Source: a virus | Strand: one strand, 5' to 3' | IMG/VR virus record: IMGVR_UViG_3300009788_000237 | Coordinates: 1 to 31,338 of that record | Length of the DNA stretch: 31,338 nucleotides | Part shown: positions 1-31,338 of the stretch, piece by piece | Layout of the letters: each line of letters begins with the position of its first letter | How positions within the stretch are numbered: the stretch's first letter is position 1 | Position numbers and translations under genes: made by a program | The notes under the pieces: model-generated | What the model was told of the DNA's origin: nothing | Databases searched by the model: none | The model's input: the letters and a program-made list of their open reading frames with translations, nothing else

Positions 1-168
1 AGCGCATATCCATCCTCCTGAACGGCAGCTAAACAAATCGCCTCCGTTTGAGCCTGGACATATTGAAGCGCACATCCATTCTTCTGAACGGCAGCTAAAC
101 AAATCGCCTCCGTTTGAGCCTGGACATATTGAAGCATATATCCATCCTCCTGAACGGCCGCTAAACAT
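1..168. repeat. 66-bp direct repeats, 2.5 copies visible
   Basis: Units run 1-66, 67-132 and a partial third from 133 to about 168. The first two are almost identical in DNA, differing at only a few positions. Each encodes one 22-residue unit of the DUF4116-like protein. Such high DNA identity implies recent expansion or repeat homogenisation, and it would also collapse in a short-read assembly. Confidence 0.9.
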
Positions 169-233
169 TCTTCGGGATCTTCCGTCCACGCGTATCCATT
201 TAATATCTCTTCTATTTTACTTTTATCCACCAT
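1..233 (-). CDS. DUF4116-like tandem-repeat protein, 3' end outside window
   Basis: This reading frame starts at an ATG at 231-233 on the minus strand and stays open for 77 codons to the left edge, so the C-terminus is missing. An AGGAG sits about 7 nt before the ATG. After a short leader (MVDKSKIEEILNGYAW) the protein is built of 22-residue repeats with the pattern ECLAAVQEDGY-LQYV-QAQTEAI. This matches the DUF4116 repeat as I remember it, with its conserved AV..(N/D)GYALQYV core. I associate that family with giant viruses and with bacteria living in amoebae; its function is unknown. The gene is the last of a three-ORF minus-strand unit with its own promoter. I see no signal peptide or membrane segment. 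The number of repeats cannot be judged because the window ends inside the array. Confidence 0.75.
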   Translation of the reverse strand, partial: MVDKSKIEEILNGYAWTEDPEECLAAVQEDGYMLQYVQAQTEAICLAAVQKNGCALQYVQAQTEAICLAAVQEDGYA

Positions 234-408: not shown

Positions 409-437
409 ACTATAGTTTATTTGTCTTTTCTTGTCAA
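409..437 (-). promoter_or_regulatory. Consensus sigma70-type promoter for the leftward DUF4116 unit
   Basis: On the minus strand TTGACA (432-437) is separated by exactly 17 bp from TATAGT (409-414). Transcription would start around 400 and run through both micro-ORFs into the DUF4116-like gene. A 13-bp perfect palindrome (428-440, arms TTCTTG and CAAGAA around one base) covers the -35 box and could be an operator. Confidence 0.75.
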
Positions 438-489: not shown

Positions 490-552
490 TTTTCTTCACT
501 AAAAATTATTTTTTCTTCACTAAAAATTATTTTTTCTTCACCTTTTTTTCAC
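490..552 (-). repeat. Left iteron array (TTTTCTTCAC, leftward)
   Basis: Three perfect copies of TTTTCTTCAC lie at 490-499, 511-520 and 532-541, spaced exactly 21 bp apart, or two helical turns. A degenerate fourth copy ends in TTCAC at 552, 11 bp further on. Read on the minus strand the unit is GTGAAGAAAA. The array sits in non-coding, very AT-rich DNA and faces a similar array in the opposite orientation at 749-840. One further left-facing copy lies at 698-707. The phasing suggests binding sites for one protein lined up on one face of the helix. Confidence 0.85.
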
Positions 553-634
553 CTTTAGTGAAACATATGTGTTTGTTTTTCTTATTTATTCGTTTATTTA
601 GTGAATAAAATATAGAGTATAAAAGCAAATTATA

Positions 635-655
635 TAATTATACAGTGTATAATTA
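635..655. repeat. Perfect 9-bp-arm dyad in the AT-rich core
   Basis: TAATTATAC, a 3-base centre (AGT) and GTATAATTA form a perfect inverted repeat centred on 645. It lies close to the midpoint between the outer ends of the two iteron arrays, in the stretch with the lowest G+C of the window. It could be an operator, a hairpin recognised by an initiator, or an easily melted element. It is not followed by a T-run on either strand, so it does not look like a terminator. Confidence 0.7.
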
Positions 656-748
656 AAAATAGTATATATAAAAATAAAAGTACTTTTCAAAACCCCATTT
701 TCTTCACCTAAAATAGGGTGTTTTTTATATTAATCATAGGTTTATCGG

Positions 749-840
749 GTGAAGAAAATTGCAAAATCAGTGAAGAAAAGGTGAAGAAAACCTTCACTGG
801 CGGTGAAAATAGTGAAGAAAAGGTGAAAAACAGTGAAAAA
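749..840 (+). repeat. Right iteron array (GTGAAGAAAA, rightward)
   Basis: Perfect GTGAAGAAAA copies lie at 749-758, 770-779, 781-790 and 812-821. Start-to-start distances of 21, 11 and 31 bp are close to whole multiples of the 10.5-bp helical turn. Shortened copies (GTGAAAA) start near 803, 823 and 833. The array ends just before the late promoter at 859-887, so a bound protein could also control that promoter. It mirrors the left array at 490-552. Confidence 0.85.
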
Positions 841-858
841 AAGGTTTCACTGGCCGAA

Positions 859-887
859 TTGACAACATAAATGGGAATTTCTATACT
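859..887 (+). promoter_or_regulatory. Consensus sigma70-type promoter of the structural operon
   Basis: TTGACA (859-864) and TATACT (882-887) are exactly 17 bp apart. Transcription would start at about 894, only some 15 nt before the ATG at 909. This argues that the ATG at 894 is not the start of the first gene. The promoter directly abuts the right iteron array. Confidence 0.8.
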
Positions 888-908: not shown

Positions 909-1388
909 ATGTCACGAAAATTATTTCCTGAGCTAGAAGAAGAAGTACAAAAACTAGCAGATGAATATTTAACTGATCAAACAGTGGACAATTATAATCG
1001 TTATAAAAAAGCTAAATCACTTCTTGCCGAGAAAGTATTAACAAGAAGAGCGAATGAGGGGGTTGTAATGGCCGCTATAGCTTTAAATGAAAAAAATCAT
1101 ACGAGACCGCCCGTTAATGATTTTGAAGAGTTAGCGAGTGTTTCAGGGATGTCTAAGGATGAATTGCAAGTTGCTGCCGCGCAGCTTAAAATGAAATTGC
1201 GGAATGTTAATGTAAAAGAGCTTACCATTCGAGGAATTCAAGAGAGTTATCAAACGGGAATGTTGACGCATGAAGAAACGAATGAGGCATTAGACCTGTT
1301 GAAGAAAATGAAAGAAGCCACTATTCCTAAACAAATTAGTGGAGAGATTAACGTGTTTTTAGATACTGAGACGGATAATGCCCTTTAG
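909..1388 (+). CDS. Probable terminase small subunit
   Basis: The product has 159 residues starting MSRKLFPELEEE. I chose the ATG at 909 because GGAGG at 896-900 gives an 8-nt spacer, whereas the ATG at 894 coincides with the predicted transcription start and has no binding site. The protein is largely helical and charged, with no recognised catalytic motif. Its place directly before the large terminase, which it overlaps by 11 nt, is the main reason for the call: small terminases recognise phage DNA and regulate the large subunit. A helical middle part (about 75-125) could hold the DNA-binding helices. The sequence itself does not match a small-terminase family that I can name. Confidence 0.55.
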   Translation: MSRKLFPELEEEVQKLADEYLTDQTVDNYNRYKKAKSLLAEKVLTRRANEGVVMAAIALNEKNHTRPPVNDFEELASVSGMSKDELQVAAAQLKMKLRNVNVKELTIRGIQESYQTGMLTHEETNEALDLLKKMKEATIPKQISGEINVFLDTETDNAL

Positions 1389-2640
1389 ACCTACTCTACG
1401 TCAACGAGAAGCCATTCAACTCTTAAAACGTCCTGCACGTTATATTTTATTGCAAGGAGGTTCACGGTCGGGTAAGACTACTCTCATTGTGTATTGGTGT
1501 TTGCATGTATGCTTAAAATATCCTGGCGCGCGCGTTTTGATTGCGCGCTTACATCTTTCGGATTTAAAAATATCTATCATTAACGATACGTTGCCTAAAG
1601 TGGCTTATCTGATGAGTGAGAATTTAGGAAAATATGTAGAGAGTAATTATAATAAAAATGAGAATGTTTTAAAATTTCCTAACGGTTCTCAATTATGGTT
1701 AGGAGGGTTATCGGATAAACACCGTACGGAAAAAATATTAGGAACGGAATTTTGTTTTATATATCTTGCAGAAATTACTCAAATAGGGTATGAAAGTTTT
1801 GAAATGTTGTGTACACGTTTGGCGCAAAAAGTAGGAATGCGTAATAGATTCGCTGTCGATTGTAATCCAGCAGCTAAATCTCATTGGGGGTATTGGCTTT
1901 TTATGAAACATCAAGATCCCGTGGATAAAACGGATAAAAACGCTGATCAATATGCGACATTGATTATGAACCCTTATGACAATCCTCATTTACCCGAAGA
2001 TTATGTAGAGAGTATGAGTAATTATTCTCTACGTAATCAACAACGTTTTTTGCGCGGGGAATGGTTAGATGACATTGAGGGAGCGTTGTGGAAGCAGGAA
2101 TTGATTGATCGTAATCGAGTAAATGTAAAAGATGTGATTAATTTTGAGCGAATCGTGTTAGGGATTGACCCCGCAGTCACGGCCGATAAAAGATCGAGTA
2201 ATGAGACCGGTTTAATCGTAGTAGGGTTGACAAATAAAAAAGGATATGTTATAGCCGATGCAAGTGGGGTTTATACGCCCGATGGGTGGGGGCAAAAAGC
2301 TGTATATTTGTATAATTATTATAATATTGATATGATAATTTGTGAAACGAATCAAGGAGGCGACTTGGTAGTGTCTAATATTACGCATATTGATAAACGA
2401 GTAAGAATTAAAAAAATTCATGCAAAACGTGGAAAAGTATTACGTGCTGACCCTATTGTAGGTTTATATGAACGTGACGAAGTGAAACATTTGGGTCATT
2501 TTAAACAGTTAGAAGAGCAAATGTGCACATGGGTGCCAGATCAAGGAAAAGATTCTCCTGACCGTATTGACGCATTGGTTTATGCGCTCCAAGAATTAAT
2601 GGCTCCTCCTCAAATTCCTTCTATTCATAGGGTACGTTAA
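1378..2640 (+). CDS. terL: Terminase large subunit (packaging ATPase and nuclease)
   Basis: This 420-residue protein is the motor that cuts concatemeric DNA and pumps it into the prohead. The N-terminal ATPase has a Walker A GGSRSGKTT (27-35), a Walker B ending in the catalytic Glu of FCFIYLAE (125-132) and a coupling motif VDCNP (160-164). The C-terminal RNase-H-like nuclease shows its acidic residues in GIDPA (D264), ICETNQGG (E323) and DRIDAL (D395, D398). The length is normal for the family. The start overlaps the end of the preceding gene by 11 nt, and the stop codon shares bases with the portal start (TAATG). It resembles the Terminase_6-type group, which would suit a pac or cos phage equally. 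Confidence 0.95.
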   Translation: MPFRPTLRQREAIQLLKRPARYILLQGGSRSGKTTLIVYWCLHVCLKYPGARVLIARLHLSDLKISIINDTLPKVAYLMSENLGKYVESNYNKNENVLKFPNGSQLWLGGLSDKHRTEKILGTEFCFIYLAEITQIGYESFEMLCTRLAQKVGMRNRFAVDCNPAAKSHWGYWLFMKHQDPVDKTDKNADQYATLIMNPYDNPHLPEDYVESMSNYSLRNQQRFLRGEWLDDIEGALWKQELIDRNRVNVKDVINFERIVLGIDPAVTADKRSSNETGLIVVGLTNKKGYVIADASGVYTPDGWGQKAVYLYNYYNIDMIICETNQGGDLVVSNITHIDKRVRIKKIHAKRGKVLRADPIVGLYERDEVKHLGHFKQLEEQMCTWVPDQGKDSPDRIDALVYALQELMAPPQIPSIHRVR

Positions 2641-5799: not shown

Positions 5800-7275
5800 A
5801 TGAGCGCATCGACTGACATGTCAACAGATGTTTTGAATAAAGTTAATGAATTGGCAACTATTATTCATGAGCATCAGAACACTTCTGAAAATTATCATGA
5901 AAAACTAGATCGTTTGTCTACTAAAAGTGCAGATTTGCTAGAAGAAATAGGATCTATAAAATCTCAAAACGATAAACAAAATGAAGTAATTAAATCGTTA
6001 GAGCTTCAACTTTCGCGCACTCCTAATGGTTCAATTAATAAATCTAATAAAGGATGTCCTCAAGATTATTATATCGCGATGGATAAAGCATTACGTCCTG
6101 CATTAGGCGCTTATCGAACTTCGCTAGATAGCAATATTCTTAAAGAAGTTCAAGAATGGGCTCTGAATGATGCTAAAATAACTCCTTATTTTGCCGATTC
6201 TTCGTTAAAAAAGAAGATAACCAAAGACGTTATTGAAGGAGTCAACCCTCAAGGCGGTTACTGGATTATACCCGAATATTCTGCTGAAGATGTTACACGG
6301 GAATTTGAAACTTCTCCTATGAGAGAAATTTGTAATGTTGCAACTACAGATTCTAACATTCTACGTTGGATCATTGATGATAATTTGAGTGAATCTGGTG
6401 GATGGGTTGGTGAAGTAGAAAGCCGTTCGGAAACCGAAACTGCTCGGATTGGACAATTAGATATTCCAATTCATGAACAATATGCACAACCGCGCGTTTC
6501 TCATTGGATGCTGGATGATACTATGTTTGATGTAGTAGGGTGGGTTTCTAATAAATCTGGTCAAACTATAACTTTGCAAGAAAATGCAGCTTTTCTAACG
6601 GGTAATGGTTCTAAAAAGCCTCGTGGCATTTTAGATTATCCTTCTTGGGGTGGGACACCTGTCGTATTCGGTAATGATAGCAATTATGAGATGGGAGCTC
6701 TTGAAACTATTTATTCTGGAGCTTCGGGCAATTTCACTTATGAGGGTTTAGTTAATACTCAATTAAGCTTGCTAGAAGCTTACCAGCCTCGGGCTATTTG
6801 GTTGACTACTCGTCAAGGTTGGGCGCAAATACTTCAATTGAAAGATAATCAAGGTAGACCTTTATTTCAGTTGCAAGATCTTTTAAAAACTGGGGCACAA
6901 GCTGTTTTGTTGGGTAAACCTGTAAGAATAGCGGCGCCTTCTACTGCTCCAACTGATCCTACTATTCCCGTTACTGGGGGGGGCATGCCTGTTCCTGGTG
7001 CGGATGCTAAAGCTATGATTTATGGCGATTTTAACAAAGGTTATACTATTGTGGACAGGGTTGGATTTTTCACTATTGTTGATATGGTTACTGACAAACA
7101 ATGGGTTAAATATTATGTTCGTAAGAGAGTTGGTGGAGCATTAACTAGTTATCAATCTTTAAAAGTTGTACAACAAACAGCCGTTCCTGGCCCTTTAGTA
7201 AACATTGACGTTGCTCCTACTAAAGAAGTAGTTAAAAAAGAAGTTAAATCTTCTGTTAAAAAAGGAGATAAATAA
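5800..7275 (+). CDS. Major capsid protein, HK97 fold
   Basis: The 491-residue protein has the two-part build of an HK97-type capsid precursor. Residues 5-75 form a heptad-rich coiled coil (VNELATIIHEHQN to SLELQLSR) that fits the delta scaffold removed by the neighbouring protease. The shell domain begins near residue 145 with GVNPQGGYWIIPEYS and continues with N-arm and spine-helix segments such as LTGNGSKKPRGILDYP. The tail is unusually basic (KEVVKKEVKSSVKKGDK). An AAGGAG lies 9 nt upstream of the ATG. The TAA overlaps the start of the next gene. Confidence 0.93.
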   Translation: MSASTDMSTDVLNKVNELATIIHEHQNTSENYHEKLDRLSTKSADLLEEIGSIKSQNDKQNEVIKSLELQLSRTPNGSINKSNKGCPQDYYIAMDKALRPALGAYRTSLDSNILKEVQEWALNDAKITPYFADSSLKKKITKDVIEGVNPQGGYWIIPEYSAEDVTREFETSPMREICNVATTDSNILRWIIDDNLSESGGWVGEVESRSETETARIGQLDIPIHEQYAQPRVSHWMLDDTMFDVVGWVSNKSGQTITLQENAAFLTGNGSKKPRGILDYPSWGGTPVVFGNDSNYEMGALETIYSGASGNFTYEGLVNTQLSLLEAYQPRAIWLTTRQGWAQILQLKDNQGRPLFQLQDLLKTGAQAVLLGKPVRIAAPSTAPTDPTIPVTGGGMPVPGADAKAMIYGDFNKGYTIVDRVGFFTIVDMVTDKQWVKYYVRKRVGGALTSYQSLKVVQQTAVPGPLVNIDVAPTKEVVKKEVKSSVKKGDK

Positions 7276-23696: not shown

Positions 23697-23811
23697 CAGT
23701 TTCTTCTTTTTTATCTTCGGCACTTATATAAGCGAATTTGAAAGGAGACGCCGTCGGAAACATATTATCATTCATTAACATATCATCATTCATTAACATA
23801 TTATCATTCAT
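23671..23811 (-). CDS. 46-codon acidic micro-protein with MNDNML repeats
   Basis: The ATG at 23809-23811 overlaps the polymerase stop by 4 nt (ATGA), with GGAG 8 nt upstream, and the frame ends at TAA 23671-23673 inside the VRR-NUC gene. The N-terminus is made of three copies of a six-residue unit (MNDNML, MNDDML, MNDNMF) from an 18-bp DNA repeat. The rest (PTASPFKFAYISAEDKKEET) ends very acidic. No function can be named. An acidic tail could mimic DNA or bind SSB partners, but this is speculation. Confidence 0.55.
   Translation of the reverse strand: MNDNMLMNDDMLMNDNMFPTASPFKFAYISAEDKKEETDDRDATSD
23758..23811. repeat. 18-bp direct repeat, 3 copies
   Basis: Three 18-bp units with the minus-strand consensus ATGAATGATAATATGTTA lie end to end. 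They encode the MNDNML units of the micro-protein and offer several in-frame ATG codons. Confidence 0.85.
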
Positions 23812-25466
23812 TTTATCTTCTCCACTAATTCATATACTCTCTTAATATACCAATCATAATTGATATCGGTATTATTGTCAATAGGTAATAAATTCATAGC
23901 TAATTTTATAGGACTATCTTTACAGAGACGTGCTTTTTGTTTTGGAGTTTCACGTTCTAAAATATGACCTTCATTAGCAATGTAATAACGTACTTTTCGA
24001 TCGATTACTGGTTGACCGTCTAACAATAAACGTTTATCTCCTTTTTTTGGAACTTTAGTAAAAAAGCAAAAATCATAAAGAGAATTATGACTAAATACAA
24101 TATCATCAATACATTCATCATTTAATAAATACCGCAGTACCGCTTCTTGTATGATAGGAGCTTTTATATTATGAGTCCAAGTAGGAAGTAAAAATTCATT
24201 TTTTCTCTTTTCTTCACCATCTTGTGTAATGGCATAATAACTATTCACATCTTTTAATATTAAAGTTTTATAATGTGTACATTCTAATTTAAATCCTGTA
24301 CGTTCTTCCCATTCTTTAATAATAGGAGATGGGATAGGTTCTGTTACTATAATTCCATCCGTATTAGCGCAAATACATTGAGAAGGGTTTAATTTTTCTA
24401 TCAAATCTATTAAATAAAATTGCCCTAAGAGGCAAATAGTTAAAGCGATATTAGGTGCATAAATTTGTTTTTTGCTATATTTATCACTTAATTTCCCATA
24501 TAAGGAATTTAATACCAGTTTTAAGGCCGTCGCGCCTTCTTGATTATTCTTTTTTAAATACAATCGTTGATCATAAACACGTTTATAGATGGATCTAAAT
24601 TTTGGACTTCCTAATTTACAATTTAAAATGATGCTAGGATAATATGAGGAAACGTCATAATCATAAACCTCATGGTAAATTCCAGATTTTTTAAATCCGT
24701 GCAAGCCTCCAATTCCTAATTGTATATTACATCCATTAATATCATATTCTTGTTCCATAAAATCTGGCTTTTCTTCCTGGTAAGATTTTAGTGAAATGTT
24801 AAAAGCTTTATCATAAAGTTCTTGACTAAAAGTACTTAACTTTAAATTTGATTGTTTATAAAGTCGTCTTGATCTATCTACATATCCATCATCTATTTTA
24901 GAAAGGATGGCTTTTTGAGCTAAGTTAGGCGCTCCTCCAAATTCAGTTTTAATATCAAAGAATTTCTTTAAAGATTGACGTGCGTAATATTCTTCTTTAA
25001 GTTTTTCCCACAACATTTCAGTAATTTTGACATCATGAATACAGTATCTTTTTACTTCTTTCCATTCCTCATCATTTAAATCTTTATCATCAGGATAAGG
25101 AAGGTTTTGTAAGATAGGATATTTTAAACGATGACCAAATTCTTTTAATGAACATTTAGATATTTTAGGACATATTTCTAGTAAATCTACAATATTAGTA
25201 TTCCAACTAATACATTCATTATTTTTGTTAATAATTTGATCAGATAGCCAATACGCTCGTGTTGTCCACCCTCCATTTTGAATTTTTTGTAAAATCGGAT
25301 GGTCATAGCGTCTATTATTAAACCCTATCCATAAATAATTCGGATCATCTAAAGGTAATTTTTTAATACGTTGTTCCTCGTCAATAATAGTCATCTTCCC
25401 ATCTATTAATAAAGCAATACAAAACCGATTGGGATAGACTTCAATGTCATATATAATAGATTTCAT
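23808..25466 (-). CDS. DNA polymerase, family B, with 3'-5' exonuclease
   Basis: The 552-residue protein replicates phage DNA. I start it at the ATG at 25466 (MKSIIYDIEVYPNRF), with GGAGG 9 nt upstream; a longer frame runs back through the tRNA genes and is an artefact. Exonuclease motifs: YDIEVYPN (Exo I, D7 and E9), GFNNRRYDHPI (Exo II, 48-58) and YCIHDVK (Exo III, D145). Polymerase motifs: DYDVSSYYPSII (A, D271), KLVLNSLYGKLSDK (B, from 316) and CANTDGIIV (C, catalytic D370). Motif C has N where most family B enzymes have the first D of DTD. The length is close to the small phi29-like enzymes, but a D5-like helicase is encoded nearby and I see no terminal protein. Confidence 0.92.
   Translation of the reverse strand: MKSIIYDIEVYPNRFCIALLIDGKMTIIDEEQRIKKLPLDDPNYLWIGFNNRRYDHPILQKIQNGGWTTRAYWLSDQIINKNNECISWNTNIVDLLEICPKISKCSLKEFGHRLKYPILQNLPYPDDKDLNDEEWKEVKRYCIHDVKITEMLWEKLKEEYYARQSLKKFFDIKTEFGGAPNLAQKAILSKIDDGYVDRSRRLYKQSNLKLSTFSQELYDKAFNISLKSYQEEKPDFMEQEYDINGCNIQLGIGGLHGFKKSGIYHEVYDYDVSSYYPSIILNCKLGSPKFRSIYKRVYDQRLYLKKNNQEGATALKLVLNSLYGKLSDKYSKKQIYAPNIALTICLLGQFYLIDLIEKLNPSQCICANTDGIIVTEPIPSPIIKEWEERTGFKLECTHYKTLILKDVNSYYAITQDGEEKRKNEFLLPTWTHNIKAPIIQEAVLRYLLNDECIDDIVFSHNSLYDFCFFTKVPKKGDKRLLLDGQPVIDRKVRYYIANEGHILERETPKQKARLCKDSPIKLAMNLLPIDNNTDINYDWYIKRVYELVEKIK
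23853..23881 (-). promoter_or_regulatory. Possible internal promoter at the end of the polymerase gene
   Basis: On the minus strand TTGACA (23876-23881), 17 bp and TATGAT (23853-23858) match the promoters elsewhere in the window. It lies inside the 3' end of the polymerase gene and would supply the micro-protein and VRR-NUC with their own transcript, with a leader of about 35 nt. Because it is inside coding DNA it may be fortuitous. Confidence 0.45.
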
Positions 25467-25487: not shown

Positions 25488-25558
25488 TAGGACGAGATAG
25501 AATTGAACTATCATCTTTCGCTTATCGGGCGACTGCTCTACCTTTGAGCTACCGTCCC
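25488..25558 (-). tRNA. tRNA-Ile, anticodon GAU, atypical C33
   Basis: A 71-nt cloverleaf can be drawn: acceptor GGGACGG with TCGTCCT (G-U pairs at both ends), D-arm GCTC/GAGC, anticodon loop CCGATAA with anticodon GAT, T-arm GATAG/CTATC with loop TTCAATT, discriminator A. CCA is not encoded. Two oddities: position 33, before the anticodon, is C instead of the near-universal U, and the outermost anticodon-stem pair is a G-A mismatch. The A73 and GAU anticodon fit tRNA-Ile. It may be functional with reduced efficiency, or a decaying copy. It lies 21 nt before the polymerase start. Confidence 0.82.
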
Positions 25559-25562
25559 TTAA

Positions 25563-25634
25563 CGTTTCCACCGAGACTCGAACTCGGACCATTAGAGTGA
25601 AAGTCTAATATTCTAACCTTTAAACTATGGAAAC
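25563..25634 (-). tRNA. tRNA-Glu, anticodon UUC
   Basis: A 72-nt cloverleaf: acceptor GTTTCCA with TGGAAAC (7 Watson-Crick pairs), a weak D-arm (GTTT/GAAT), anticodon arm TTAGA/TCTAA with loop CTTTCAC and anticodon TTC, T-arm CCGAG/CTCGG with loop TTCGAGT, discriminator G. The loop is the standard bacterial tRNA-Glu loop. CCA is not encoded. It starts directly after the stop codon of the zinc-finger micro-gene and is followed after 4 nt by tRNA-Ile, so both are presumably processed from the replication-operon transcript. Confidence 0.92.
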
Positions 25635-26591: not shown

Positions 26592-27002
26592 TTAATGCCG
26601 ATTCCGCGTAGCTTCAAGAATAGGTGAATTAGCTTCTGTAGGTACGTAGATCACTTGATTCCCTTTTTCTTTTAGATTTTCAATCCATAAATATTTTAAA
26701 TAAGATTTGTTTTTATTTAAAGATTGCCTTATAATTTTATTAGCTTTAGCGATTTCTTGTGCTCGAATTATTTCAGCTTGAGCTAGAAGTTTTGCACTTT
26801 CTTCTTTAGCTTTTGCTTCTTTAATAGCAATTTGGCGGTTCCAATCCGCTTTTGCCAATTCAGCTTGGTCCACTTTTCCTTGACTCCAAACTTGATATTG
26901 CGAATATAATGCACAAGTTCCCCATATAAGAGGAATGATTATTAAAACCACTCCTAATAATGAGAGGATACTCCCTATTGCATATTTAGTATTATCGCTC
27001 AT
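26592..27002 (-). CDS. SPFH/prohibitin-like membrane protein
   Basis: The 136-residue protein has an N-terminal membrane helix (IGSILSLLGVVLIIIPLIWG, about 9-28), followed by an Ala/Glu/Lys-rich coiled coil (VDQAELAKADWNRQIAIKEA and KAKEESAKLLAQAEIIRAQE). It ends with YLKYLWIENLKEKGNQ and VIYVPTEANSPILEATR. The coiled coil and end resemble the C-terminal half of prohibitin/HflK-type SPFH proteins. The SPFH core itself is absent or reduced. Such small proteins occur in other phages; their role is unknown, perhaps membrane attachment of replication or protection from FtsH. Its leader and first codons belong to a 32-bp repeat. Confidence 0.65.
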   Translation of the reverse strand: MSDNTKYAIGSILSLLGVVLIIIPLIWGTCALYSQYQVWSQGKVDQAELAKADWNRQIAIKEAKAKEESAKLLAQAEIIRAQEIAKANKIIRQSLNKNKSYLKYLWIENLKEKGNQVIYVPTEANSPILEATRNRH

Positions 27003-27022
27003 TAGTTTCTCCTAGTTTATTA
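26991..27022. repeat. Translation-initiation cassette, copy 2 (32 bp)
   Basis: Identical to 26557-26588. Here it is both the leader of the SPFH-like gene and, in another frame, the last codons of the truncated helicase (ANKLGETNER), which marks a recombination junction. Confidence 0.9.
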
Positions 27023-27852
27023 GCTTGACTATAATCGTTAAAACATTTTCGTTGATAGATTCTTTCATATCCTTCAAGAGCCCAATTTAATATACCAGAA
27101 GCTTCTTCAGTAAGTTTTTCTTTTAAATTAATATCCTCTTTTCCTACAAAAGATTTTACAAACTTTAAAGAGACCATTCTATTTTTTAATGCTGTATCAA
27201 TTTCAAAATTAGGAGGCAATTGATTGAATGCGATTACCATTTTAGGAACCTCATAAGTAATATAACGTTTATGGTGTAATTTTCGCATTTCCATACCTCC
27301 CGTTGAACTCATTCTTTTTAATTCATTAATAACATTTTTAGAAGTAAAATTTGGCATTTCATCAATGAATATCATTTTTTTATTTTCACATAGAGTAGAG
27401 CGTCTTTCGGGAATTAGTAAGTATTCCATTGAACAATCTCCTCCTCCTACTAAATATTGAAGAGTATGAATAATAGTGCTTTTCCCTCCTCTACTGGCAC
27501 CAAATAAAAAAAGTATTTTTTCTAAAGAACGATCATAAGTTAAACAATATCCAAAAAATTCTTGTAAAGTTTGAACTTGAGGACTCTCTATTATATTAAA
27601 ATAATCTTTTAAAGTGTGGAACCATAAAGGGCATTTTGCTTGTGGATTGTAATCATAAGGCAATTGCACTTTGCTTAGAATATGACGATCATGTGCTTGA
27701 AAATGGAATTTTCCTTTATCCGTATTAAAAATTAATAATCCATTTTGTAAGTTCATATGTTCTACTTTTTGAACGCTTTCATAATTATTTAACATGGATG
27801 CTTGTTTCTCTTTATCACTTTTAACGTTAGGGTAATTGATATTTTCGCTCAT
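26992..27852 (-). CDS. Truncated D5-like helicase paralogue with swapped ends
   Basis: The 286-residue product is about 90% identical (by eye) to the D5-like helicase at 30265 from MLNNY(E/D)SVQKVEHMNL to FNDYSQA. It keeps Walker A GASRGGKST (118-126), Walker B MIFIDE, the FNQLPPNF sensor region and the likely arginine finger in ALKNRMVSLKF. The first 19 residues (MSENINYPNVKSDKEKQAS) differ from the full copy and resemble the SSB-like protein's start. The last residues come from the leader of the next gene, so the C-terminal winged-helix-like part is gone. The ATPase core could still form mixed hexamers. It has AGGAGAAAC upstream and is not frameshifted. Confidence 0.82.
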   Translation of the reverse strand: MSENINYPNVKSDKEKQASMLNNYESVQKVEHMNLQNGLLIFNTDKGKFHFQAHDRHILSKVQLPYDYNPQAKCPLWFHTLKDYFNIIESPQVQTLQEFFGYCLTYDRSLEKILFLFGASRGGKSTIIHTLQYLVGGGDCSMEYLLIPERRSTLCENKKMIFIDEMPNFTSKNVINELKRMSSTGGMEMRKLHHKRYITYEVPKMVIAFNQLPPNFEIDTALKNRMVSLKFVKSFVGKEDINLKEKLTEEASGILNWALEGYERIYQRKCFNDYSQANKLGETNER

Positions 27853-28142: not shown

Positions 28143-28170
28143 ATCATACCTATTATTCAAGAATTGTCAA
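28143..28170 (-). promoter_or_regulatory. Promoter of the lower replication operon
   Basis: On the minus strand TTGACA (28165-28170), 16 bp and TATGAT (28143-28148). The -35 box overlaps the end of the gene at 28157. It would drive the genes from 28107 leftward to the VRR-NUC, including both tRNAs. Confidence 0.65.
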
Positions 28171-28867
28171 GGTTAATATTAAAATAATCACCATTTTTTC
28201 CTTTTTTTAAAATGGGCACATCATCTACTTCGTAAAATTGGTCTATGTTATACGTTTTTTTAGGGGAATTCCCTTTATAAGATGAAAAAGACACTATCCC
28301 TTTTTTTTTTAAAAACAATGCTAACGCGATAGGAGTTCCTATCAGATATTCTTTTTTTAAATTAAAGTCTTTAAAAATTTCTTCAACCGTCAATATGTCT
28401 TTTTTAAATAATTTTAATATTTCTTTTTTCCATGTTGAGTTATGAATGTCAAAATCACAAATGTTATATACGCTTATCTTTCTTACTTTTCTATCAAATG
28501 TAAAACTCTTTTTATAACATTTTATATTATATAAATTGGTAAGATGATGACCTAATACAATTGAGTTGTGTATGTACTCATTATTAAGAAGTTTTAATAA
28601 ATCTTCTACTGAAATATATCCTTCTTTATTCAATAATAAATTTTTAATATGATTAAATAAGTTATTAGGATTCACATAGGATTGTATTGAATATGCTCCC
28701 ATACTTTTATGGTTTATTTGCTTATTTTTCTTCAGCAATTTTAAATCTTTCCTCCAACGTAGAGGGAAATCTTTTGTTAATATATTTAAATCACGTGCGG
28801 TTATTACGGGAACGATCCAATCTTTTAATCTTTCTTTCAATTTGTCTTCCATCTCTTTTTCATTCAT
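28157..28867 (-). CDS. Unknown 236-residue protein, possible winged-helix repeats
   Basis: The protein starts MNEKEMEDKLKERLKDWIVP. It overlaps the helicase stop by 8 nt, so it is probably translated together with the SF2 helicase. It is basic. Three stretches look like winged-helix units: VITARDLNILTKDFPLRWRK, then GYISVEDLLKLLNNEYIHNS, and DILTVEEIFKDFNLKKEYLI, each with a helix-turn-helix-like pattern followed by strands. A DNA-binding accessory role next to the helicase is inferred. I recognise no specific family. Confidence 0.5.
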   Translation of the reverse strand: MNEKEMEDKLKERLKDWIVPVITARDLNILTKDFPLRWRKDLKLLKKNKQINHKSMGAYSIQSYVNPNNLFNHIKNLLLNKEGYISVEDLLKLLNNEYIHNSIVLGHHLTNLYNIKCYKKSFTFDRKVRKISVYNICDFDIHNSTWKKEILKLFKKDILTVEEIFKDFNLKKEYLIGTPIALALFLKKKGIVSFSSYKGNSPKKTYNIDQFYEVDDVPILKKGKNGDYFNINLDNS

Positions 28868-30209
28868 CTATTCTAATCTCCAATAACTTATTTGACTTAT
28901 TGTAATTATCCCATTTATAATAGAATTTGTATAAACAATTAAATTCTAAATTATTAGTTAAATTAGTCACGGCTTCTTTAGACGTTTTGAATTTTATTTC
29001 ACTCCCATTAGAACTAGAAATTTTTAAGCAGTTACCGTTAGGTATATACTTTAAATCATGCTTCATACATGTAATAAATTTAACATTAGCTTTAATAAAC
29101 CCTCCACATTCTTTACAATAAGTCGCGCAAGGGAAATTATCATGACCACATTGTTCACATTTTTTAGTTGGCGCTTCTCCTTTTACTAATTTTTTATGAC
29201 AATGCGAACAATTCTTAAGTCTATAATCCGTTAGTTTAAGGCAGAAAATACAATATTTTTTAAAATCAGTGGGTTTATTATTTTTAACTTCAAAACAAAA
29301 ACTATTAATAGTATAGTCCCATATATGATTATGTTGTTTTCCGTCCGCTATTCTATCTCCACGTCCAATGATTTGCTCATAGAGGGTGTAAGAATCGGTA
29401 GGACGTAAAATGACAATGTGTTCTAAAGCGGGATAATCAAACCCGGTAGTGAGGATTTCACAATTAATTAAATATTGCAATTGCCCACATTTAAATTCTT
29501 TAATAATTTGACACCGTTCTTTTTTAGGAAGTTTTCCATGAATAATTTTTGATCCTGGCAGATATTGTTGGGTAATTTCTGCGTGTTTAATGTCACATAC
29601 AAATATTAATGCTTGTTTATCCTTAGGTGCATTTTCTAAAAAATGATTAATACAATGTTCAGTTTGTGGACAACTATCATCAGATAATTTTTTTACACTT
29701 TGAAATGATTCATTCTTTACATTGATAAGACGATCATGAGGAATAAAAGGGAAAGTTCGGGCAGTAAGGAAACCCTTTTGAACTAATTCCTCACGATCAA
29801 TCTTATACAAACACTTTTTAAACACATGGGGTACTAAATGTCCACAATCTAAACGGAAGGGGGTTGCGGTAAACCCATAAACTTTTTTAGATAATCCCAT
29901 TAAGGTTTGATACATTCCATCAAATTGACGTACTAGATGACACTCGTCAATGATTAAAATATCCGATTCAATTAACTGGCGGTAGGCTTTATTTACCGTC
30001 ATACATAGAGCATTAGAATTGATTTTAGCGGCATTTTGTTTCATTAGTTCTAATCTGGGTGTCACCACTAATACCTTTTTATCATGATAATGATGACACA
30101 ATTCCGCTATAATATGACTTTTGCCTGAACCAGTAGGCGCAATAACACATCCCCCTGTTTCAGAGTTGATACAGCTTTGTAAGGCGTTTTGTTGGTAAGG
30201 TCTTAACAT
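28860..30209 (-). CDS. SF2 helicase, RadD-like, with C-terminal zinc ribbons
   Basis: The 449-residue protein has all main SF2 motifs: I APTGSGKS (24-31), Ia VVTPRLELM (48-56), II DECH (88-91), III TATPFR (114-119), V TTGFD (254-258) and VI QIIGRGDR (279-286). The order RecA1-RecA2 followed by zinc ribbons is that of RadD/YejH-type helicases. Cys pairs at 320/323, 334/337, 351/354 and 361-365/368 suggest two zinc sites. Phage relatives are thought to unwind branched DNA or replace RecG-type functions. GGAG precedes the ATG by 6 nt; its promoter is at 30228-30256. Confidence 0.9.
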   Translation of the reverse strand: MLRPYQQNALQSCINSETGGCVIAPTGSGKSHIIAELCHHYHDKKVLVVTPRLELMKQNAAKINSNALCMTVNKAYRQLIESDILIIDECHLVRQFDGMYQTLMGLSKKVYGFTATPFRLDCGHLVPHVFKKCLYKIDREELVQKGFLTARTFPFIPHDRLINVKNESFQSVKKLSDDSCPQTEHCINHFLENAPKDKQALIFVCDIKHAEITQQYLPGSKIIHGKLPKKERCQIIKEFKCGQLQYLINCEILTTGFDYPALEHIVILRPTDSYTLYEQIIGRGDRIADGKQHNHIWDYTINSFCFEVKNNKPTDFKKYCIFCLKLTDYRLKNCSHCHKKLVKGEAPTKKCEQCGHDNFPCATYCKECGGFIKANVKFITCMKHDLKYIPNGNCLKISSSNGSEIKFKTSKEAVTNLTNNLEFNCLYKFYYKWDNYNKSNKLLEIRIDE

Positions 30210-30264: not shown

Positions 30265-31338
30265 TTAAACTTTCTCTAAGTTGTAAAAATAATAACCATT
30301 TTTAACGGTGCGTGTGACACCTGTCCATTTAATAAGACGATAAAAACGTTGTTGAGTCATTTTAAAATCGCCGGTTGCTTCTTGATAATGTTCTAATAAT
30401 TCACTGGTCTTCCATATCATGTTTTCGCGCCCTTTTTCTCTTAAAAACACTGTGATTTCTCTCATTTCATCATTAGCTTGATTATAAAGTTCAATGGTCG
30501 CTTGACTATAATCATTAAAACGTTTGCGTTGATAAATTCTTTCATATCCTTCTAACGCCCAATTTAAGATTCCTGGCGCTTCTTCTATTAGTTTTTCTTT
30601 TAAATGGATATTTTCTTTTCCTACAAATGATTTCACAAACTTTAAAGAAACCATTCTATTTTTTAAAGCGGTATCAATTTCAAAATTAGGAGGCAATTGA
30701 TTAAACGCTATAACCATTTTAGGAATTTGATGAGTGATATAAGGTTGTTGGTGCAATTTTCGCATTTCCATACCTCCTGTAGAACTCATTCGTTTTAATT
30801 CATTAATAACGTTTTTAGAAGTAAAATTGGGAAGTTCGTCAACGAATATCATTTTTTTATTTTCACACAGACTCGAACGTCTTTCAGGGATCAATAAATA
30901 TTCCATAGAACAATCTCCACCTCCAACAAGATATTGAAGGGTATGCGTAATAGTTCCTTTTCCCCCTCGACTGGCGCCAAATAAAAAAAGTATCTTCTCT
31001 AAAGATCTATCATAGGTTAAACAATACCCGAAAAATTCTTGAAGAGTTTGAACTTGTGGGCTTTCTATCATGTTAAAGTAATCTTTTAAAGTTTGTAACC
31101 ATAAAGGGCATTTAGCTTTAGGATTGTACTCATAAGATAATTGAACTTTACTTAAAATGTGGCGGTCATGGGCTTGAAAATCAAATTTTCCTTTTTCTGT
31201 ATTAAAAATTAATAATCCATTTTTTAAATTCATATGTTCTACTTTTTGAACACTATCATAATTGTTCAACATACATGCTTGACTGTACCGTACTAAATCG
31301 TCAACATAAGGACGCGATCTTAAATGCTTTTTCCCCAT
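30265..31338 (-). CDS. D5-like (SF3) replicative helicase/primase C-terminal part, 5' end outside window
   Basis: The visible 357 residues hold a D5/DUF5906-type AAA+ helicase: Walker A GASRGGKGT (121-129), Walker B MIFVDE (163-168), VIAFNQLPPNFE (209-220) with the arginine finger candidate R228, GILNWALEGYERI, and a C-terminal winged-helix-like part (ENMIWKTSELLEHYQEATGD, RFYRLIKWTGVTR). In this family a primase (AEP-like or Toprim) domain usually precedes it, so the gene almost surely continues beyond 31338 and the ATG at the very edge is internal. It unwinds DNA at the replication fork. A truncated copy lies at 26992. Confidence 0.88.
   Translation of the reverse strand: MGKKHLRSRPYVDDLVRYSQACMLNNYDSVQKVEHMNLKNGLLIFNTEKGKFDFQAHDRHILSKVQLSYEYNPKAKCPLWLQTLKDYFNMIESPQVQTLQEFFGYCLTYDRSLEKILFLFGASRGGKGTITHTLQYLVGGGDCSMEYLLIPERRSSLCENKKMIFVDELPNFTSKNVINELKRMSSTGGMEMRKLHQQPYITHQIPKMVIAFNQLPPNFEIDTALKNRMVSLKFVKSFVGKENIHLKEKLIEEAPGILNWALEGYERIYQRKRFNDYSQATIELYNQANDEMREITVFLREKGRENMIWKTSELLEHYQEATGDFKMTQQRFYRLIKWTGVTRTVKNGYYFYNLEKV

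Follow-up and report, generated by a model that had tools for sequence, protein, structure and literature searches.

A probable replication origin of the P4/SaPI kind in an uncultured contractile-tailed phage, with a D5-family helicase as its likely initiator

Described origins and the locus under study

The closest described counterparts of the locus considered here are the origins of P4 and of the SaPI and PICI elements. PICI origins always comprise two iteron sets around an AT-rich region (PMC6092414). The iterons of SaPIs are recognized by the C-terminal domain of Rep, and the same is true of the D5-type SCCmec helicase Cch2, which requires AAGTG iterons (PMC7581432). In P4, the alpha protein binds the origin repeats through a winged helix (PMC4234260); at ori and crr, the P4 record marks "type 1" repeats, GGTGAACA, which occur in both orientations and are 10-11 bp apart in the ori clusters.

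The window, that is, the whole stretch of DNA analysed, is a linear contig of 31,338 bases from an IMG/VR phage. Rightward late genes start at ∼0.9 kb (terminase large subunit, portal, head protease, major head protein, tail sheath, tape measure, and baseplate hub), while leftward replication genes run from 31.3 to 23.4 kb (D5 helicase, DEAD-type helicase, a second D5 copy, and polymerase B). The region 440-858 is intergenic and separates divergent operons, the putative terS lying on one side and the early genes on the other. Within it, positions 490-842 are probably the replication origin of the phage, of the P4/SaPI kind, with its own D5-family helicase as initiator. An origin was one of two functions that the original prediction had offered for this region, and it is now supported by comparison: the layout recurs beside D5-family genes in unrelated phages, it resembles ori and crr of P4, and it has been published for the SaPI and PICI elements. 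The main features are the following.

3 to 233, minus strand: DUF4116-repeat gene of the leftward operon adjoining the array, truncated at the edge of the contig
409 to 437, minus strand: leftward sigma-70-like promoter, TTGACA-N17-TATAGT
490 to 552, minus strand: left iteron block, with perfect GTGAAGAAAA at 490-499, 511-520, and 532-541 and GTGAAAAAAA at 543-552; spacings 21, 21, and 11 bp
553 to 697, no strand: AT-rich core, the proposed melting site, with 18% GC over 559-697; within it lie the dyad 635-655 and two isolated GTGAA cores, at 558 and 601 (+)
698 to 707, minus strand: single left-facing iteron, GTGAAGAAAA
749 to 842, plus strand: right iteron block, with perfect copies at 749, 770, 781, and 812, GTGAA cores at 803, 823, and 833, and a reverse-facing GTGAA at 793-797
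859 to 887, plus strand: rightward sigma-70-like promoter, TTGACA-N17-TATACT, 16 bp past the last iteron
909 to 1388, plus strand: putative terS, named from its position before terL only and without a family match; GGAGG at 896-900, ATG at 909
1378 to 2640, plus strand: terminase large subunit, in the rightward late operon the first gene to be identified with confidence
30265 to 31338, minus strand: D5-family helicase, the proposed initiator, its N-terminus cut by the contig end; predicted C-terminal winged helix at residues 278-357

How does this locus compare with its counterparts? With P4 it has in common the iteron core GGTGAA, the 10-11 bp spacing found at ori, the use of both orientations, and an AT-rich neighbourhood; by analogy, the D5 protein would correspond to alpha, a multifunctional helicase with a winged helix for its repeats (PMC4234260). 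P4 differs in that its cis elements form two separate regions and its primase is of the TOPRIM type (PMC4234260); the mirroring of its iteron sets is also imperfect. The likeness to SaPI and PICI origins lies in the AT-rich region between two iteron sets and in the D5-type self-loading helicase, for which the SaPI5 Rep (7ola) is the best structural match. However, PICI origins sit directly behind rep, whereas the array of the contig occupies a divergent intergenic region before terS; because it is not directly 3' of the helicase gene, its assignment as a PICI/SaPI origin in the narrow sense was rejected. The element itself also differs, being a tailed phage with capsid, portal, tail sheath, baseplate, and terminase genes rather than a satellite island. 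Among phages, the top match to the D5 protein in the phage collection, at 32.5% identity, is from Alteromonas phage vB_AmaS-R9Y2. There, too, an array with AT-rich DNA inside has the terS side on one flank and a divergent D5 primase-helicase operon on the other, but its iterons are TGTAACG and less cleanly mirrored, and the late genes are different.

Other parts of the contig have peculiarities of their own. Positions 1-167, inside the DUF4116 gene and at the contig edge, consist of 66-bp tandem repeats, and two tiny ORFs on the minus strand (374-300 and 297-244), which encode 24 and 17 residues and both have a strong Shine-Dalgarno sequence, stand in tandem before the start of this gene at 233. 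The polymerase B gene, whose start is probably internal to the listed ORF, is flanked on its 5' side by tandem genes for tRNA-Ile and tRNA-Glu (25488-25634, minus strand). Three 18-bp tandem repeats (23759-23812) lie near the convergence of the operons, close to the peak of the cumulative GC skew.

The iteron array and its AT-rich core

All eight perfect copies of GTGAAGAAAA named in the original prediction were found in place, four on each strand. They span 490-821, and a dinucleotide shuffle of the region 440-858 yields 0.0035 of them. Degenerate copies occur at 543-552 (-), 601 (+), 803 (+), 823 (+), and 833 (+); when these are included, GTGAA cores number 16 in the same region against 0.71 expected from dinucleotide shuffles. 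Another reverse-facing GTGAA, at 846-850, is just beyond the right block. A count over the whole contig, suggested as a check, gave a single further perfect copy, which lies within the polymerase gene (24208, minus strand).

The array thus consists of multiple short iterons, and the copies keep to one face of the helix, as had been proposed: at ∼10.5 bp per turn the resultant is 0.995 in the left block and 0.955 in the right one (p ∼0.004 each). Their orientation is leftward on the left side and rightward on the right, so that two opposed sets enclose an AT-rich segment; one left-facing copy, at 698, stands apart between this core and the right block. The enclosed DNA is, as claimed, the most AT-rich of the window, positions 576-676 being its lowest-GC 100 bp (13%). 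The dyad at 635-655 fared less well. Its 9-bp arms are exact (TAATTATAC AGT GTATAATTA), but such a dyad turns up in 14% of shuffled versions of this AT-rich stretch; it therefore carries little weight, and its role as a special element of the core was rejected. The GC-skew minimum also falls at the array, where it is confounded by divergent transcription.

The outward promoters that had been noted on both sides are real matches to the consensus, each with 11 of 12 positions and a 17-bp spacing; the contig has nine sites of this type when both strands are counted. The right one would start the late operon and the left one probably the early operon.

The D5-family helicase as proposed initiator

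Which protein would act on this array? The statement that no initiator gene is adjacent holds for the linear fragment only, since the opposite contig end cuts through the gene of a D5 helicase of initiator type. Leftward of its end at 30265, the next gene begins at 30209. The contig is a linear fragment that ends inside D5, and a search for contigs crossing the right end, by which the distance between array and D5 could be measured, found none. Should only a short gap separate the contig ends in the closed genome, D5 would sit in the leftward operon driven from 437-409.

A profile made from the D5 protein and 40 relatives matches the SaPI5 primase-helicase 7ola with an E value of 8e-51, and an AlphaFold model of the remaining 357 residues, made with the same number of relatives, reached a pLDDT of 85.5 and a pTM of 0.84. 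For this model the best solved structure is again 7ola (Z 22.5, 288 aligned residues, 5.3 Å). A search specific to D5 that used just the contig protein recovered no relative, and structure prediction from the single sequence was poor apart from the winged helix. The replicon that carries the array also encodes a D5-class helicase, which in these models has a C-terminal winged helix. A second D5 copy (26992-27852, minus strand) has 86% DNA identity over 782 bp and is without the C-terminal winged helix; it is a recent duplication, and possibly a regulator or a decaying gene.

We infer that replication would begin with binding of the winged-helix end of D5 to the GTGAA iterons of both blocks. 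Facing D5 rings would then assemble on the left and right iteron sets and melt the AT-rich core between them, after which polymerase B and an associated primase would copy the DNA outward in both directions.

Another possibility is that the array is a phage origin at which a different initiator recruits D5, for example, the 236-residue early protein encoded at 28157-28867. The D5 copy in the contig is incomplete, and the same operon encodes uncharacterized early proteins. Still, P4 alpha and the Rep proteins of SaPI and SCC elements recognize their own iterons (PMC4234260, PMC7581432), and the D5 of the contig retains the predicted winged helix, so that a separate initiator appears unlikely.

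Related arrays in other phages and what they may serve

The original prediction had also asked for the same array in related phages, and here the answer is divided: the exact iteron array recurs only in one contig that is 99.8% identical, while the architecture is widespread with other iterons. The sister contig, of 8.5 kb, shows this identity across the array and beyond. Its left end falls within 33 bases of that of the window, in the 66-bp tandem repeat of the DUF4116 gene, and both assemblies therefore probably broke at this repeat. With so close a contig as the sole near relative, conservation of the iterons could not be followed. A near-identity search of the phage collection and a distant search of the plasmid collection returned nothing, and the exact iteron was not found among D5 relatives. 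A two-iteron pattern with a variable gap gave 91 matches in IMG/VR; in the part of these that was read, the clusters besides the sister contig and one unrelated contig (L012) look like coding repeats or chance and were set aside. L012 carries the 20-mer GTGAAGAAAAGGTGAAGAAA twice, in mirror orientation and ∼550 bp apart, before terS (5992-6575), and a group of three contigs (L287, L289, and L291), evidently one phage, has one iteron pair before terS. The 18-base GTGAARAAAAGGTGAARA is common to unrelated phages just before terS, mirrored over 550 bp in L012 and alone in L293 (5240-5257).

Distant relatives in terL (up to 46%) lack the GTGAA array, for which reason the search turned to helicases; some of them hold other mirrored arrays. 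These arrays, found upstream of terL and blind to helicases, proved to be directly behind genes of replicative ATPases, among them VapE (L144, L175) and D5 (L178). One lies directly behind a DUF3987 gene with a weak MarR-type winged-helix match (L160), and others directly behind AAA_25 genes (L112, with a winged helix, and L132); in L143 and L149 the array is inside a DUF1376 gene.

A broader survey covered 80 metagenomic D5 loci, gathered with a five-sequence D5 alignment. Under a single definition of an array (any 7-mer with five or more copies in 450 bp, two or more of them on each strand) and with few control genomes, mirrored arrays were present in 36 of the 80 loci against 4 in shuffled sequence; lambda gave one weak match and HK97 none. 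The remaining 44 loci are without a mirrored array by this 7-mer definition, including some of the nearest in D5 (L197, L200, L201). Over half of the arrays (19 of 36) fall within 0-500 bp past the D5 stop codon, where 2.0 were expected (binomial p 5e-15, an optimistic value given that some loci are near relatives). Another group lies ∼3 kb upstream of this stop and probably precedes the primase-helicase gene, as in R9Y2. Same-strand iteron spacings are mostly 8-12 bp and also 21 bp. In all 26 arrays examined, two weak ones (L268 and L270) having been left out, the lowest-GC 60 bp of the array belong to the lowest 2% of the locus. Iteron sequences vary between phages while the layout is kept, and similar D5 C-terminal sequences are paired with different iterons, so that iteron specificity is not predictable from the winged helix. 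Flyfo podovirus Tbat2_2 (L191) has two similar mirrored TGCAACA arrays ∼14 kb apart (25082-25390 and 39303-39730), possibly two copies of an origin.

Do these arrays serve replication, or could they be sites of DNA packaging (cos/pac) bound by the small terminase? The array of the window stands just before terS-terL, with the putative terS starting 67 bp rightward; such arrays most often lie directly behind D5, and its absence from that place counts against an origin. The same can be said of the GTGAARAAAAGGTGAARA pair right before terS in two unrelated phages, L012 and the L287/L289/L291 group, which a packaging role would also fit. In the D5 loci, however, the arrays follow the helicase gene and track helicase genes rather than terS; in Lactobacillus phage JNU_P5 an array is directly behind D5, with no terminase gene annotated in the 27 kb covered. 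Moreover, the GGTGAACA repeats serve replication in P4, and packaging offers no reason why 26 of 26 arrays should enclose AT-minimum DNA. A packaging site is, on these grounds, quite improbable.

The two-way switch, in which one regulator on phased sites would govern the outward promoters as an early/late operator, is a comparably poor prospect: the flanking promoters stand, one of them just 16 bp from the last iteron, and upstream phased A-tracts could stimulate transcription too, but no other positive evidence emerged, no regulator gene was recognized (the 236- and 71-residue products gave no family match), the left block lies ∼52 bp upstream of its -35 box against 16 bp on the right, an asymmetry about the promoters in an arrangement that is roughly symmetric about the AT core, and the helicase-linked recurrence is left unexplained. 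Operator and origin functions may coexist. Taken together, the AT core and the linkage to helicases are not both explained by either packaging or an operator, and an origin served by the D5 helicase is the reading we prefer.

This reading locates where replication starts in an uncultured phage with a contractile tail and names its likely initiator. The D5 survey suggests that the SaPI/P4 design of origins is common in ordinary phages; a mirrored array close to the gene of a winged-helix helicase would therefore serve to locate origins in phage genomes from metagenomes. Metagenomes could then directly yield pairs of initiator and origin, and the recognition code of the winged helix could be solved by comparison.
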